Shown piece after piece: positions 55,077-62,867 of a stretch of DNA of 64,000 nucleotides (positions are counted from its first letter, which is position 1; the number at the start of each line of letters is the position of its first letter). Source of the stretch: Bartonella machadoae (lineage in GTDB: Bacteria; Pseudomonadota; Alphaproteobacteria; Rhizobiales; Rhizobiaceae). The stretch spans positions 289,095 through 353,094 of the forward strand of contig NZ_CP087114.1 in NCBI RefSeq assembly GCF_022559585.1, read 5' to 3'. The notes beneath the pieces were generated by a model, which ran no database searches, had not been told where the DNA came from, and was given only the letters and a program-made list of their open reading frames with translations. The translations under genes were made by a program, and so were the position numbers.

Positions 55077-55433
55077 TTATTCTTCAGTATCAACAATCTC
55101 GATAAGAATATCGCTCTTATTAACCTCCTTATTTTTTGGAACCTCTCTTATCTCACTTCTTCGATTGAGTTTTGCACGCCCACAAACCCGACCAAAAACC
55201 CTGATAGTATGAGAAACCTGAGCCTTGCCATAAACAGAGCCATAAATTTGCGCACAGCCACTCACTTTTGCATAGTCATAAACCTTGCCATAAATCTTTG
55301 CACGGCTATGAACAACAGCATAGCCATAAACATGTGCAGTGCTAAAAAGACAAGCAGAGCCTGATACCCTAGCGCTACCATAAAGCCTTGCATATTCAAA
55401 AAGACAGCTATTATGAGAAAGATGTGCTTTGCC
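55077..55433 (-). pseudogene. Fragment of a left-handed hexapeptide-repeat protein
   Basis: An open frame without a proper start (a stop lies at 55434-55436; the first GTG is internal at 55265). It reads KAHLSHNSCLFEYARLYGSA, TAHVYGYAVVHSRAKIYGKV and YDYAKVSGCAQIYGSVYGKA, i.e. YGxAxV-type beta-helix repeats, then a charged end VNKSDILIEIVDTEE. It looks like the 3' part of a second copy of the gene immediately upstream. Confidence 0.7.
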
Positions 55434-55525: not shown

Positions 55526-55930
55526 TCAATTATTTTCAATAATGAGAACAATGCCGTGACTATGAGCATTTTCAGAAATATGGACATGATTGACGACACG
55601 GGCGTGATCATAAACTTGTGCCTTTCCATAGACATGAGCATGATCATAAATGATCGATTTACCAAGAACGATTGCATTTCCATAGACATACCCAGCGATA
55701 ATAGCATTATTATAGACCCTAGCATTTTCAGAAACACGACCTGAGTTTAAAACCAGAGCATTACCATAAACCCGGCAATTACCATCATGAGAGAGGTTAT
55801 CTTCATTTTCGATAAAACCACCCAATTGACCGACCTTGACATCAGAAAAGCTTTTTAAAGTCTGAATGCGATAAAATATGCGATTACCAAAGAGACGCGT
55901 TTCATTTGTAAGTGCAAATTTTTTTTGCAT
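55526..55930 (-). CDS. Left-handed hexapeptide-repeat (YdcK-like) prophage protein
   Basis: A 134-residue protein. The N-terminal module KKFALTNETRLFGNRIFYRI, then TLKSFSDVKVGQLGGFIENE and DNLSHDGNC, is shared by many phage proteins. It is followed by about 10 degenerate hexapeptides (VYGNALV, NARVYNNAII, GNAIVLGKSII, AHVYGKAQVYDHARV) forming a left-handed beta-helix. Relatives are annotated as transferase-like or YdcK-like, but no catalytic residues are evident here. It lies between gpI and the fibre fragment, where P2 encodes gpH/G, so a fibre-associated or virion-surface role is inferred. The ATG at 55930 follows AAGGA. Confidence 0.75.
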   Translation of the reverse strand: MQKKFALTNETRLFGNRIFYRIQTLKSFSDVKVGQLGGFIENEDNLSHDGNCRVYGNALVLNSGRVSENARVYNNAIIAGYVYGNAIVLGKSIIYDHAHVYGKAQVYDHARVVNHVHISENAHSHGIVLIIENN

Positions 55931-58917: not shown

Positions 58918-59190
58918 ATGATACTATTATCGGTTATGAACAATAAAGTTGAAAAAATAATCAGCTTGATGAAAGCCTCACCAAAGAACATCAAGTTTTC
59001 AGATTTGTTAGCTGTGTGTGTGCATTTTTTTGGAGAACCGCGGAACAATGGTACAAGTCACTTTGTTTTTAAAACGCCGTGGCTTGGGGACCCCCGTGTG
59101 AATATTCAAAAAGATACTGGCAACAAAGCAAAAGCTTATCAGGTCAAGCAAGTCTTACAAGCGATAGAAAGGATAAAACATGAACAATAA
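58918..59190 (+). CDS. hicA: HicA-like toxin
   Basis: A small dsRBD-fold mRNA interferase of the HicA type. KIISLMKASPKNIKFSDLLA, VHFFGEPRNNGTSHFVF with the catalytic-type histidine, and PRVNIQKDTGNKAKAYQVKQ are visible. The ATG at 58918 has AGGA upstream; the ATG at 58936 is an alternative, and a TTGACT/TATTAT pair (58903-58931) would even make it leaderless. It overlaps hicB by 11 bases. Plus strand, opposite to the morphogenesis genes. Confidence 0.85.
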   Translation: MILLSVMNNKVEKIISLMKASPKNIKFSDLLAVCVHFFGEPRNNGTSHFVFKTPWLGDPRVNIQKDTGNKAKAYQVKQVLQAIERIKHEQ

Positions 59191-59497
59191 TCATTATACA
59201 TATCGTGTTTTGTGGTCGCAAGAAGATAAGGAATATGTTGGTTTGTGTGCAGAATTCCCATCCCTTTCATGGTTAGATGTTCAAGCAGAGAAAGCTTTAA
59301 AAGGTATTATGGATCTCGTTTCAGAAGTTATTGAGGACATGCAACACAATGGAGAAGAAATTCCTGTGCCTTTGTCACATGGTAAATATAGTGGTAAGTT
59401 CCAATTAAGAATACCACCAGAACTCCATAGGAAGCTCGCAATTCAAGCTGCTGAAAATGGTGTAAGTTTAAACAGATATATTTCCTCTAAACTTTAA
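59180..59497 (+). CDS. hicB: HicB-like antitoxin
   Basis: A 105-residue antitoxin with an RNase H-like degenerate N-domain (YRVLWSQEDKEYVGLCAEFP, SLSWLDVQAEKALKGIMDLV) and a C-terminal ribbon-helix-helix domain (LRIPPELHRKLAIQAAENGV, SLNRYI) that binds the operon promoter. It is intact and overlaps hicA. Confidence 0.92.
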   Translation: MNNNHYTYRVLWSQEDKEYVGLCAEFPSLSWLDVQAEKALKGIMDLVSEVIEDMQHNGEEIPVPLSHGKYSGKFQLRIPPELHRKLAIQAAENGVSLNRYISSKL

Positions 59498-59535
59498 AAT
59501 TTTAATCTATATACACTAAAAGAAAAGTTAAGTTT

Positions 59536-59682
59536 ATGAAAACCTCTCAATTAAAACAAATGCCGGTGTTTAAGACAGATGAAGAAGCAGAAAACTTTGT
59601 TGATACTGCTGATCTCACGGATTATGACTTAACTGGTTTTAAACCCGTTCATTTTGAATTTTTACCTAAAGAAGCCTCTTAA
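59536..59682 (+). CDS. CopG-type antitoxin, orphan
   Basis: A 48-residue frame missed by length cut-offs. KQMPVFKTDEEAENFVDTAD and LTDYDLTGFKPVHFEFLP match short CopG/BrnA-like antitoxins of type II systems. It starts 39 bases after hicB behind a weak AAAAGTTAAG site and is followed by a strong terminator. No cognate BrnT-like toxin is adjacent, so it is either an orphan or a third cistron of the hic operon. Confidence 0.6.
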   Translation: MKTSQLKQMPVFKTDEEAENFVDTADLTDYDLTGFKPVHFEFLPKEAS

Positions 59683-59685
59683 CCA

Positions 59686-59718
59686 CCTCCCCATTTTTGA
59701 GAACGGGGAGGGATATAT
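59686..59718 (+). terminator. Terminator of the hicAB-copG unit
   Basis: CCTCCCC (59686-59692) pairs perfectly with GGGGAGG (59705-59711), followed by GATATATTTTT. Confidence 0.8.
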
Positions 59719-59724
59719 TTTTAC

Positions 59725-60003
59725 TTAGGCAACCTTTTTAATAGGGTTTTCCAAATTCGGCTGGTAAGCTTTTAAAAAAGGATCTATCGTTGCGGGAAAC
59801 TCTGAAGCTCCAAAATCTGTAAGAACTGCTAGAATCTTTGTAATATTTGGCACGTCATCTTGAAGTTTCAAAATCAAAGCTTTTTCTACAATGCCCATAA
59901 CCTCAACCAGTGCCTTACAATCTTTATCTCCAATGCCTTTATGGTTAGAAAATTGAGACAACGCTATCCACAAATCACATAAAAAATTGGTATCTACTTT
60001 CAT
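59725..60003 (-). CDS. Hypothetical prophage protein downstream of the antirepressor
   Basis: A 92-residue acidic-to-neutral helical protein starting at ATG 60003, which overlaps the antirepressor stop by ATGA and is preceded by GGAGG. KVDTNFLCDLWIALSQFSNH and VMGIVEKALILKLQDDVPNI show no known motif. Strict coupling to the antirepressor suggests a joint function, for example in lysogeny control. Confidence 0.65.
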   Translation of the reverse strand: MKVDTNFLCDLWIALSQFSNHKGIGDKDCKALVEVMGIVEKALILKLQDDVPNITKILAVLTDFGASEFPATIDPFLKAYQPNLENPIKKVA

Positions 60004-60743
60004 TGTACACCTCCATGGATTTGTTCTCTTAAGCAAGCCAATCCTCTAGATGTGATTTTTGTTGAAGGGAGCACCTTTTCTGTACCATCCGGTCTTTGAA
60101 TAGTAATAGCAGGGCAATCCATCAAACCTTTTTTGATTTTATCTTGATAAGGTAATAAAGGAGCACTCGGAGCCCGTCGATAGACCCAATCATGTTTACG
60201 CAAATAATCGGTTAAGTCCTTTGGTCGTATTTCTAACATTTTTGCAGATTCAATAAGACCAAACAGACCATCAGAGCGTTTCAAGCCATCAAGTGCCTTG
60301 GCTTTAGGCTCTAACTCGGCAATCACATGGTCTTTCTGCTCGATTTGGCTTTGTAAGTGATTCAAGAAACCAATCATTGCTTGTGGACTTGAATAATCAA
60401 TCTGTGGTGTTGCTACTTGCTTTGCAAGTTTTTCACACTCAATAAAGTACAAACGAGCTTCTCTACCTTTCTTATTGTTCTCAAGCATAGAAAGTTCTTT
60501 TGCGACACTTAGAGTCAAATGATAATCTTTACGATTATGTCCTCCCCTGCCTTTGCTTCCCAAAATTGGGAAGCAAACAAAGTCTTGATTTTCTACTAAA
60601 TTATATTTGTTGATACGTTCAGTAATCCAATCCGCAAACTTTTTACCTACTTCCAAAAACGCATGTAACTCACGTGCATTTACTGTCTGAACAATATCAC
60701 CATTAATAGTGGTTTGATGTATGTCTATTAAATATTGTACCAT
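60000..60743 (-). CDS. Phage antirepressor (AntA and KilAC domains)
   Basis: A 247-residue antirepressor. The N-terminal AntA/AntB domain (TVNARELHAFLEVGKKFADW, ENQDFVCFPILGSKGRGGHN, TLSVAKELSMLENN) is followed by a Gln/Glu coiled linker and the C-terminal KilAC DNA-binding domain (ESAKMLEIRPKDLTDYLRKH, KITSRGLACLREQI). Such proteins inactivate the phage repressor and trigger lytic growth. AGGAG (60751-60755 on the plus strand as CTCCT) serves the ATG at 60743. It sits oddly between head and tail genes and has its own promoter and a long structured leader. Confidence 0.92.
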   Translation of the reverse strand: MVQYLIDIHQTTINGDIVQTVNARELHAFLEVGKKFADWITERINKYNLVENQDFVCFPILGSKGRGGHNRKDYHLTLSVAKELSMLENNKKGREARLYFIECEKLAKQVATPQIDYSSPQAMIGFLNHLQSQIEQKDHVIAELEPKAKALDGLKRSDGLFGLIESAKMLEIRPKDLTDYLRKHDWVYRRAPSAPLLPYQDKIKKGLMDCPAITIQRPDGTEKVLPSTKITSRGLACLREQIHGGVQ

Positions 60744-60984
60744 GATTTGGCTCCTGTGTAATTAGACGTTTGTTAATGACACTCTAAAAGAATGCCGGGC
60801 GCTAACAAACACGGTACACAGTCCGTCGTTATGCTTTCCCCGCAAGGGTATTGTATAGCATAACTACACCCGACAAGCCATTATATGCGTGCAACATATA
60901 ACGAGTCAAAGCTTTTAATTGGCGGAGAAAAGATTGTTTCGGCAATCCATCCGCTGTGTATTTAAGGTGTTTGTTAGGCACCTG
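60744..60984 (-). ncRNA. Structured leader of the antirepressor, candidate C4-type antisense RNA
   Basis: About 240 nt transcribed from the promoter at 60990-61017. Pairings (plus coordinates): AGGTG/CACCT (60965-60969/60979-60983), GCGGA/TCCGC with an inner GATTG/CAATC (60922-60954), TTATATG/CATATAA (60881-60901), GTTATGC/GCATAAC (60828-60864), and a longer stem of 60793-60801 with 60867-60875 (9 bp including G-U). CTAACAAACAC at 60802-60812 is the exact inverted complement of 60967-60977, and a near-copy of the latter (CGTTTGTTAA, 60767-60776) lies just upstream of the ribosome-binding site. Such competing sites before an ant gene define the C4 system of phages P1/P7. Family membership is inferred. 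Confidence 0.6.
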
Positions 60985-60989
60985 ATTCG

Positions 60990-61017
60990 ATTATTCATAT
61001 TCCCATAATCTTGTCAA
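60990..61017 (-). promoter_or_regulatory. Sigma70-type promoter of the antirepressor leader
   Basis: On the minus strand TTGACA (61017-61012), a 16-base spacer and AATAAT (60995-60990) come close to consensus. The start of transcription is expected near 60984. Confidence 0.7.
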
Positions 61018-61057
61018 GCAGTAATATAAGATTTTTTAAAAATGATAAGAGGGTTCT

Positions 61058-61408
61058 TTATTTTACCTCCCTTAAAATAAGCTTATACATACCGGATTCA
61101 GAGGCTTGGACATCTGTGACAATGAAGCGCTCTTGAGTTGTCTCTTCAGTGTTTTCAGGGGCGAGCACCACGACATTATCCTCAGCTTTTGGTGGCAATC
61201 CGCCAATATCATTGATACAAAGATCAAGTTCTTTTCTTGGAATTGTTGTTGGTATTCTACCACCAGCATCCGATTCCGAATGTTTGATGCCGTAAATTGC
61301 TGTAATCCGAAAAGATTGTTGATTGTCCTTTCGCGTATAGATGACGGGCTGCCCAAAGGTGTTGCGTACCTCTTTTACCATTTTGTTAAGCAGCCCGTGC
61401 CATAGCAT
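61058..61408 (-). CDS. Phage head-tail attachment protein (lambda FII-like)
   Basis: A 116-residue protein that probably joins head and tail. The ATG at 61408 lies one base after the capsid stop and follows GGAGGG; the open frame to 61423 is inside the capsid gene. Landmarks are WHGLLNKMVKEVRNTFGQPV and IYTRKDNQQSFRITAIYGIK, with an Ile/Arg-rich end (SGMYKLILREVK). It has the length and position of lambda-FII-type proteins; the assignment rests partly on context. Confidence 0.72.
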   Translation of the reverse strand: MLWHGLLNKMVKEVRNTFGQPVIYTRKDNQQSFRITAIYGIKHSESDAGGRIPTTIPRKELDLCINDIGGLPPKAEDNVVVLAPENTEETTQERFIVTDVQASESGMYKLILREVK

Positions 61409-61409
61409 G

Positions 61410-62486
61410 TTATTTCCCTCCAATGACGGCTTTGAACAGCATTTCAGGACGTGTGCAAATGTAAAGCGGATAGCTGTAAACTTCAGGCTTTACCCATGCA
61501 TTACGGTCATGATCGACGATTAGCATCGTGTAGAGAGGTTTTCCCACCGTGTTGGCAAAATCTAAGCTTTCACCAGGTGCAAAGGTTTTCTGGAATACAC
61601 CAGGCGCATTAACAGGAAAGAATTGACATTCATCAGGCTTAATTCCTATCGCACGCTTTGTTCCAGCCTTTGCACTCACATTATAGTTATGAATACTGCG
61701 ATAATTGATAAAGGTCACACCCGCAAAGTCAAAACTACCAAAGCTCCCTGAGCCAAGAGCACTTGGTGTTGCAACGCCTCCTGCGCTATTGAGTGTCTGA
61801 GCTAAGGCTGTGTTTAAATAGGTTTCACGAATGGTTTTATGGTTTTTTAGTTTGGAAAAGAATTCATTCCCACAAAGTCCAATAATCCGTGAACGGTCAG
61901 AGAATGCTCCTTTTGAAGCTTCAATCATTCGCATAATGACCTGATCAACATTATCAGCAACATTGGTTGTTTCATTCTCCAGTTTAAAGTCAATTGGCTT
62001 TGGTGGGGTAATTTCCCATTCCTTATACCAATCGACAATCACCGAACCATCAGCATCAAGGACAACACCTTGAACAGCACCAAGCTGCATGTTTTCCCAT
62101 GTCAATTCGATTTCAGAAATCAGTTTCTTTTGTTTTCTGGCAATATATTTCATTGCCGTCTCTAACTGATCTTCTGTGCCAAATTCACGCCGGTTTTGGA
62201 TTTCTTCTGATTTCACAGTATCACTTTTGGCAATACGGGTTGTTTTGAAAAACCGAAGATTACGACTGTCTCTGTCACCTTCTGCTAAAGGGGCTCCGCG
62301 TTCGCTGGTTTGAATAAGCGAAAATGTATTATCACGCCGTTCAATACCAACCACTGTGGTGCTGGTTTCAACTTCTTCAAAAAGATTGAGAGAGCTTACA
62401 AGACCCGGTTGAAACTCATAGTTTTCAATGGCTTTCATCATTGTAATGCTTGAGAAAGCATCATGTTTAAAAAAATTCATATCCAT
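61410..62486 (-). CDS. Phage major capsid protein (lambda gpE-like)
   Basis: HK97-fold major capsid protein of the lambda gpE family, 358 residues. Landmarks are FEEVETSTTVVGIERRDNTF, LIQTSERGAPLAEGDRDSRN, FGTEDQLETAMKYIARKQKK, LTWENMQLGAVQGVVLDADG and YPLYICTRPEMLFKAVIG. It follows the decoration protein, the same order as lambda D-E. Confidence 0.95.
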   Translation of the reverse strand: MDMNFFKHDAFSSITMMKAIENYEFQPGLVSSLNLFEEVETSTTVVGIERRDNTFSLIQTSERGAPLAEGDRDSRNLRFFKTTRIAKSDTVKSEEIQNRREFGTEDQLETAMKYIARKQKKLISEIELTWENMQLGAVQGVVLDADGSVIVDWYKEWEITPPKPIDFKLENETTNVADNVDQVIMRMIEASKGAFSDRSRIIGLCGNEFFSKLKNHKTIRETYLNTALAQTLNSAGGVATPSALGSGSFGSFDFAGVTFINYRSIHNYNVSAKAGTKRAIGIKPDECQFFPVNAPGVFQKTFAPGESLDFANTVGKPLYTMLIVDHDRNAWVKPEVYSYPLYICTRPEMLFKAVIGGK

Positions 62487-62498
62487 GTGCGTATTCTC

Positions 62499-62867
62499 CT
62501 ATCGCAACAGAATTTTATTGTTGTCTTCTAAAGACTGGATAGCTGCCATTTTTTCTTGCTCCAGTATTGCATCGGGCCATATCAGTTCCGAAGCTTTTAC
62601 AGTACTCAAACGCGCTGTAATGACGGCACGTTGTTCTTCACCTGTTGCATCAACAGTGGCATAAGAAATCCCTGCGGGCACCGCACTGCCATCAGATGCT
62701 GCCGGATTAAGAGGGACATATTTTCCCGTTTTTGTTATCTTTCCCATGACAGTCCCAGCCTCAATGAAGGCTCCTGATGCAAACACCACTTGTTCATTTG
62801 ACATGTCAGGGTCGTAGCGCCCAAGATAAGCGCCATTGCGAACATCTTCATAAATAATATGACTCAT
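62499..62867 (-). CDS. Phage head decoration protein (lambda gpD-like)
   Basis: A 122-residue capsid-stabilising trimer protein. From the ATG at 62867 (GGAAGG upstream, ATGA overlap with the previous gene) it reads MSHIIYEDVRNGAYLGRYDP, VFASGAFIEAGTVMGKITKT, AVPAGISYATVDATGEEQRA and VITARLSTVKASELIW, typical of the HDPD family. Confidence 0.9.
   Translation of the reverse strand: MSHIIYEDVRNGAYLGRYDPDMSNEQVVFASGAFIEAGTVMGKITKTGKYVPLNPAASDGSAVPAGISYATVDATGEEQRAVITARLSTVKASELIWPDAILEQEKMAAIQSLEDNNKILLR

Follow-up and report, generated by a model that had tools for sequence, protein, structure and literature searches.

An RF02221-type RNA with matching target sites upstream of a Bartonella machadoae prophage antirepressor gene: a proposed C4-type antisense switch and its re-coded copies

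The antirepressor leader

The DNA analysed is a stretch of 64 000 nt from Bartonella machadoae (contig NZ_CP087114.1, positions 289 095 to 353 094 of the forward strand), referred to below as the window. It contains a prophage antirepressor gene, the leader of which is read from the minus strand, from 61017 to 60744. The features of this leader and the neighbouring genes are listed in Table 1. The small PHROG 33768 protein encoded downstream of the antirepressor is also the product of the next gene at a sister locus described below (L015).

Table 1. Features of the antirepressor leader and adjacent genes (positions in the window)
Feature	Position	Strand	Basis
Upstream promoter, TTGACA-16-AATAAT, leader and antirepressor	60990..61017	-	11/12 consensus; TTGACA column kept in 37 aligned sister leaders
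a1', upstream target of a, CTAACAAACAC	60967..60977	-	Perfectly complementary to 60802-60812 (11 nt)
b1', upstream target of b, TACACAG	60954..60960	-	7/7 complementary to P3 loop
Hairpin past b1', GCGGA...TCCGC, inner GATTG/CAATC	60922..60954	-	Sequence and alignment
Internal promoter, TTGACT-18-TATAAT	60880..60909	-	11/12 consensus; end 5 nt from RNA 5' end
RF02221 (sRNA-Xcc1-type) RNA, P1 stem around hairpins P2 and P3	60785..60875	-	51.3 bits, E 3e-8, gathering 53
b, antisense element in P3 loop, CUGUGUA	60815..60821	-	Complementary to b1' and b2'
a, antisense element in 3' junction, GUGUUUGUUAG	60802..60812	-	Complementary to a1' (11 nt) and a2' (8 nt)
a2', target 12 nt upstream of Shine-Dalgarno, TAACAAAC	60768..60775	-	8-nt complement of a
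b2', target running into Shine-Dalgarno, TACACAG-GAG	60754..60760	-	Complementary to b
Antirepressor Shine-Dalgarno, AGGAG	60751..60755	-	Sequence
Antirepressor gene, 247 aa, AntA and KilAC (ANT) domains	60000..60743	-	Pfam AntA 4e-25, ANT 7e-22; PHROG anti-repressor Ant
Small gene downstream of antirepressor	59725..60036	-	PHROG 33768 (function unknown)

The RNA encoded in the leader contains two antisense elements, a (GUUUGUUA, in the 3' junction) and b (CUGUGUA, in the P3 loop). Each is complementary both to an upstream copy (a1' and b1', respectively) and to a copy situated at the ribosome-binding site (RBS) of the antirepressor gene (a2' and b2'). A preliminary description of this DNA had reported a near-consensus promoter, a perfect complementarity of 11 nt within the leader and a third related site near the RBS. 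All of these are present: the promoter (TTGACA-16-AATAAT, 11/12) at 61017-60990 on the minus strand, the complementarity between 60802-60812 and 60967-60977, and the third site, which is placed here at 60768-60775 (8 nt). The b element, the internal promoter abutting the RNA, the assignment of that RNA to RF02221 and the existence of 46 genomic copies are new in comparison with that description.

The predicted fold of the leader (-72.7 kcal/mol) is more stable than those of shuffled sequences (z -3.2; 0 of 200 shuffles). An inverted repeat as long as the 11-nt one was observed in 9 of 1000 dinucleotide shuffles of the leader.

Two further observations were made in the vicinity. A perfect palindrome, GATTAT-N10-ATAATC, lies across the upstream promoter at 60989-61010 and is a possible repressor operator. 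A second exact copy of it was searched for in the window and none was found, so the suggestion of a repeated operator was rejected. At 58918-59497 on the plus strand, a 90-aa ORF overlaps a HicB-family gene in a HicAB-like layout; the antirepressor and phage structural genes run in the other direction, and Pfam gave no match for the first ORF of the pair.

Identity of the RNA

No Rfam family scored above its cut-off in the window. The minus strand from 60875 to 60785 matches the RF02221 (sRNA-Xcc1) model over its whole length, with a score 1.7 bits below the gathering threshold (Table 1). The C4 model (RF01695) gave no match in 60500-61100 up to an E value of 10, and none across the genome in a scan in which all 14 controls were also silent. 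The c4-a1b1 model (RF03163) was not among the window matches up to E 10, and the isrK model (RF01394) likewise had no match in the window up to E 10. When phage P1 was subjected to the same kind of scan, C4 scored 68.8 bits, c4-a1b1 51.0 bits and isrK 35.1 bits (the last below gathering), and RF02221 gave no match.

Identification of the RNA as Rfam C4 or c4-a1b1 was therefore rejected, neither model matching. The preliminary description had called the leader C4-like and had pointed to the Rfam C4 model. The likeness holds for topology and for the order of the elements, but the family identity does not, the match being to the separate family RF02221. Judged by their models, RF02221 and C4 are distinct families, yet they have a common topology, in which a P1 stem encloses hairpins P2 and P3 and the 3' junction is unpaired. 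The RNA is best classed with RF02221, as an RNA with a probable C4-like mode of action that lies outside the Rfam C4 family.

The consensus fold comprises 22 pairs, and double changes were seen at 11 of these among 65 Bartonella RNAs, a result that is supporting only, as the sequences are related. No relatives of the leader DNA were detected in phage records at an E value of 0.01, and seven plasmid records with DNA similar to the leader were found, all from Bartonella. The Brt RNAs of Bartonella were considered as an identity and set aside, since the genes described as following them encode XRE regulators, a judgement made from their published description.

Copies in the genome and the genes downstream

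The genome (2.7 Mb, one contig) was found to contain 47 RF02221 matches at E values up to 10, of which 46 have E values below 2e-4 and six score above gathering. One of the 47 lies in the window. The 46 parsed loci (the weak match L047 was not parsed) were reduced to 37 distinct loci by removal of copies identical in the RNA and the 45 nt downstream. The window RNA and its near flanks themselves have a second, identical occurrence in the genome, at G000:C1:1333369-1333459 (L009, L010).

When the downstream ORFs were grouped by BLASTP linkage, 24 proved to be antirepressor-type, 21 beta-solenoid and one other (L015), with none assigned to L047; L021 and L022 share their counted ORF with L002 and L003. 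It is apparent, then, that 21 of the 46 RNA copies sit before beta-solenoid (YdcK-like) genes instead of antirepressors. Pfam scans were made of representatives only. Those of the antirepressor type contain AntA/ANT, Rha or Rha plus ANT domains, and the two beta-solenoid representatives are of the YdcK type. The solenoid family has many members in Bartonella, a few of them named as phage related, and its PHROG matches are of unknown function.

An ORF of this YdcK-type beta-solenoid family, the same that follows 21 sister RNAs, is also present in the window at 55526-55930 on the minus strand. There is no RF02221 match in front of it, the window having a single such match. A shorter look-alike of this ORF was noted by eye at 55077-55265.

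Certain loci show signs of rearrangement. Six RNA loci located at about 34-72 kb of G000:C1 reappear at about 86-124 kb with a constant offset of approximately 51.9 kb, an arrangement reminiscent of the tandem duplication of a prophage segment. The RNA of L021/L022, situated 274 nt upstream of that of L002/L003, combines an upstream half like that of the window with the 3' half of another RNA and lacks the target; it looks recombinant.

Covariation of the pairing elements

The 37 distinct loci carry 23 different b and 12 different a sequences. Complementarity of at least 7 nt between b and the 70-nt region downstream of its own RNA was observed at 32 of 37 loci, compared with 8 of 1292 non-cognate combinations (loci with different b). 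For the upstream region, the corresponding values at the same threshold were 32 of 37 and 43 of 1292. The a element matched its own upstream region in 33 of 37 cases (504 of 1270 non-cognate) and its own downstream region in 31 of 37 (337 of 1270 non-cognate), the cognate contrast being weaker for a because part of that element is constant. None of 20 000 permutations reached the cognate mean in any of the four tests. The five loci at which b has no 7-nt match downstream are L015, L021, L023, L027 and L044. Avoidance of shared codes between loci was also considered and is unsupported, one pair of loci having both a and b in common where 1.8 would be expected.

Pairing of b with b1' was counted across Bartonella with b1' anchored by its constant flank; 65 loci were examined, two were not parsed and L048 was left out by range. 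The pairing is complete (7/7) at 56 of 63 parsed loci, compared with a mean of 2.6 and a highest value of 10 in 5000 shuffles. These 63 loci contain 30 b sequences. The number of Watson-Crick pair types is two at b position 7, three at position 3 and the full four at each of positions 4 to 6.

Similar results were obtained beyond this genome. At 28 other Bartonella loci (29 before removal of one duplicate), the segment comprising b and a matched over at least 7 nt in 27 cases upstream (non-cognate, 60 %) and in 28 downstream (non-cognate, 37 %), the high non-cognate values being due to the constant part of the segment. Among 59 loci outside Bartonella, matches of at least 7 nt were found upstream at 52 (19 % non-cognate) and downstream at 27 (11 % non-cognate), leaving 32 with no such match downstream. 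For both sets, 0 of 20 000 permutations reached the cognate mean. Covariation, which the preliminary description had named as a test of its reading, is thus found among the sister loci and those of other Bartonella.

Promoters and the source of the RNA

Promoter-like hits as such occur at chance level in 59000-62500 (9 found, 8.9 expected), and the evidence for the upstream promoter is therefore its conservation. The 37 loci were divided for this purpose into 19 solenoid and 18 non-solenoid loci, the latter being 17 of antirepressor type plus L015. The best upstream promoter reached 10/12 or better at 14 of the 18 non-solenoid loci and at 18 of the 19 solenoid loci, counts that stand without a shuffled baseline. 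An internal promoter of at least 10/12 at the 5' end of the RNA was found at 13 of 18 non-solenoid loci and at 0 of 19 solenoid loci; shuffled stretches average 6.4/12.

The reverse distribution was seen for an RCC triplet behind the P1 stem, a putative RNase P contact. It is present at 4 of the 18 non-solenoid loci and at 13 of the 19 solenoid loci, and is absent (ATTC) from the window's own locus. It is tempting to suggest from these distributions that there may be two routes to the same RNA, an own promoter in the non-solenoid class and tRNA-like processing in the solenoid class. In the window, the internal promoter is the one feature that points to an independent transcript, which would be about 88 nt long.

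The preliminary description had drawn on the processing of C4 from the ant transcript. The C4 logic itself is supported, but such processing need not be the source of the window copy, given a second promoter-like site only 5 nt from the 5' end of the RNA. No terminator-like hairpin was found between b1' and the RNA at any of the 37 distinct loci of the genome. Elsewhere, such a hairpin was found upstream of the RNA at 14 of 59 and 18 of 35 loci in two sets (shuffles, mean 2.6 and 1.4, respectively).

Occurrence in other genomes and association with symE

RF02221 matches were obtained in at least 41 of 61 genomes of the genus, at least 29 of 289 of the class and at least 55 of 398 of the phylum (own genome included). 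Genome sets larger than 40 were searched with stricter filters and part of the candidates was scored, so that these counts are lower bounds and zeros are not absences.

Ten proteins encoded downstream of RF02221 RNAs outside Bartonella were compared with Pfam. Two are SymE, two KilA-N, two Bro-N (one below cut-off), one P22_AR_N and one Rha; the other two have no Pfam match. Of six plasmid records similar to a symE-linked leader, two were read, and their next genes are annotated as BRO family and Rha family. SymE relatives were also sought on plasmids, and none was found at an E value of 1e-6.

A motif scan of 170 RF02221 loci (47 of the own genome, with 88 and 35 others) revealed seven SymE-type ORFs downstream of the RNA, all seven of which are SymE by Pfam; the scan found none downstream of the 47 loci of the own genome. 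At five of the seven symE loci (L106, L126, L183, L184 and L189), the P3 loop has a complement of 7 nt at the RBS. L212 has its 7-nt match across the start codon instead, and L206 has none. The symE reading rests on these seven loci, taken without a permutation baseline of their own.

An sRNA-Xcc1 upstream of symE has been reported in Xanthomonas integron cassettes (PMC12444791), which fits the symE loci found here; pairing with the RBS is not named in the parts of that report available. These arrangements raise the prospect that sRNA-Xcc1, described as trans-acting, may be a C4-type switch for its neighbour.

Not all loci outside Bartonella follow the pattern. At twelve loci with one gene family (L109, L185-L188, L190-L192, L194, L195, L199 and L201), the upstream match is 7-11 nt, the downstream match is just 4-7 nt and no match lies at the RBS in the manner seen at other loci. 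This gene family is conserved, with several copies per genome, and the one member scanned has no PHROG match. A separate arrangement was noted at G807:C1:163777-164420, where three RF02221 RNAs (L204, L215 and L217) with two P3 loops lie in tandem within 0.65 kb; it resembles a cluster reported in Xylella (PMC12189769).

Proposed switch and alternatives

The elements, their predicted fold, the covariation and the gene context are established directly. Position, element order, fold topology and covarying pairings all fit the C4 logic, and the preliminary reading is supported as correct in kind. We regard it as quite probable that the window element is a C4-type antisense switch acting on the prophage antirepressor. 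The dozens of sister copies with other, matching codes point to a family of lock-and-key switches like C4 of phage P1.

Expression, the direction of control, the role of a1' and b1' and immunity are what we infer beyond these observations, as follows. In a lysogen, the internal promoter would give rise to the folded RNA, some 80-90 nt long. Pairing of its b (P3 loop) and a (3' junction) elements with b2' and a2' of the ant mRNA would cover the start of the Shine-Dalgarno sequence and block translation of the antirepressor. The prophage would thereby remain silent, and a superinfecting relative with the same code would be silenced too. Transcription from the upstream promoter, or read-through from the structural genes, would yield a transcript that also carries a1' and b1'; these would pair with the RNA in competition with the RBS and so favour antirepressor synthesis. 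The a and b sequences would constitute the key, which differs from locus to locus. By analogy with repression by C4 and with activation of a silent antirepressor transcript by IsrK, we take the free RNA to be the repressor and a1'b1' the competitor.

Structure predictions agree with this scheme in part. In the short transcript from the internal promoter, the predicted partners of b and a are b2' and a2', so that the Shine-Dalgarno sequence is covered at its first bases; the fold is not clearly more stable than those of shuffles (z -1.4; 18 of 200). In the long transcript, a1'b1' is predicted to be paired with the RNA. The Shine-Dalgarno sequence is, nevertheless, mostly paired with another stretch (0.74-0.90) in the predicted ensemble of the full leader, leaving an open ON state putative. 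In cofolding calculations made without loop-loop contacts, the folded RNA interacts weakly with the target (-1.6 kcal/mol) and more strongly with a1'b1' (-6.2 kcal/mol).

A single transcript could accommodate all of these pairings, and just such a difference separates the minimum-energy fold of the long transcript from that of the short one. The leader might, therefore, be a riboregulator acting only in cis, which switches between a1'b1':RNA and RNA:a2'b2' in response to, for example, transcription rate or a ligand, and never releases a free RNA. This is unlikely, in our estimation. The internal promoter at the 5' end of the RNA at 13 of 18 non-solenoid loci would give an RNA without a1'b1', and the relative sRNA-Xcc1 is described as a short RNA (88 nt by end mapping and about 100 nt on Northern blots; PMC2996969).

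Far less probable is a trans-acting small RNA with distant targets, for which the place before the antirepressor would be incidental. Such is the published view of sRNA-Xcc1 and its Xylella homologues, so far as the sources were available, and at some loci the next gene has no match at its RBS. Locus-specific covariation with the RBS region of the next gene argues against it. The last alternative, that the repeats arose without a regulatory role by DNA-level copying (inverted or direct) around phage regulatory regions, is scarcely credible: a single 11-nt repeat is indeed not very rare in shuffled leaders, but several Watson-Crick pair types occur at each variable b position, there are 30 b sequences in 63 loci, and the layout is identical at loci outside the genus.

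A broader proposal can be put forward, which we judge slightly less likely than not. RF02221 would be a second phylum-wide class of C4-type switch, with a two-part key (a and b) re-coded at each locus. In Bartonella, the 46 copies (37 distinct) in one genome would serve as immunity codes among resident prophages and would have been taken over for beta-solenoid genes; elsewhere the RNA would guard SymE toxins, with sRNA-Xcc1, known from plant pathogens, as an antitoxin-like lock of the adjacent symE.

The chief interest lies in the many re-coded copies and in targets other than antirepressors. A named but unexplained RNA family gains a concrete and testable target in the RBS of the adjacent downstream gene. 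A single genome also supplies one RNA switch in dozens of natural variants that differ in code, which should be useful for studying cross-talk between prophages and the manner in which an antisense pair is re-coded without loss of fit.

Comparison with known systems

In the open-licence literature searched, no link of sRNA-Xcc1/RF02221 to an antirepressor or to C4 was found, nor was a report of a C4-type architecture in Bartonella; earlier recognition elsewhere is possible. One Bartonella paper simply lists an AntA/AntB antirepressor (PMC12043232). RNAs of both RF02221 and RF01695 are tabulated for one genome in a paper on Xylella, unlinked in the sections available.

The Brt RNAs of Bartonella henselae resemble the present RNAs in being multicopy (33-34 copies in B. 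tribocorum) and in lying before genes (PMC5387305). They differ in their length of 194-203 nt and in being followed by XRE-type HTH genes, a separation made from their description. The genes that follow the present RNAs were assigned by clustering to the antirepressor type, the solenoid family or PHROG 33768.

The C4-like group 1 sRNAs of Acinetobacter baumannii (PMC5320573) are also numerous within one genome and have a variable a region. They differ in belonging to the C4 model, and pairing partners in flanking genes are unreported in the passages available.

IsrK/anrP of the Salmonella prophage Gifsy-1 (RF01394) is likewise a prophage antirepressor under an RNA switch, in which IsrK activates translation of a silent antirepressor transcript (PMC4825925). 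In phage P1, it is the a1/b1 stretch that gives the isrK score of 35.1 bits mentioned above. IsrK has a terminator at its end, whereas a terminator-like hairpin was found at that place in 0 of 37 loci here.

sRNA-Xcc1 (RF02221) of Xanthomonas and Xylella shares with the window RNA its covariance model at full length and a similar size. It has been presented as a trans-acting RNA under HrpG/HrpX (Chen et al., 2011, going by the title as cited), and distant targets have been predicted for it (including in PMC2996969); pairing with the next gene is unnamed in the sources to the extent available. It differs in this respect, its described targets being distant while the target here is the neighbouring gene.

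C4 of phages P1 and P7 provides the precedent for repression, and in P1 the mature RNA is excised by RNase P (PMC5320573). The window RNA differs from C4 in having no match to RF01695 or RF03163 and, in most non-solenoid loci, in a promoter-like site at the 5' end of the RNA; by model, its P1 stem has 9 pairs, compared with 17 for C4, and its P2 is larger. The architecture was compared with the annotated phage P1 record, in which the sites complementary to C4 extend over 7, 7, 7 and 8 nt. The annotated order there (a1, b1, C4, a2, b2, icd-ant) is the same as that found here. The two also agree in the predicted structures, with b lying in the P3 loop and a at the 3' junction of the P1 stem, in the placement of b2' near the RBS, and in having an antirepressor operon as the regulated gene.
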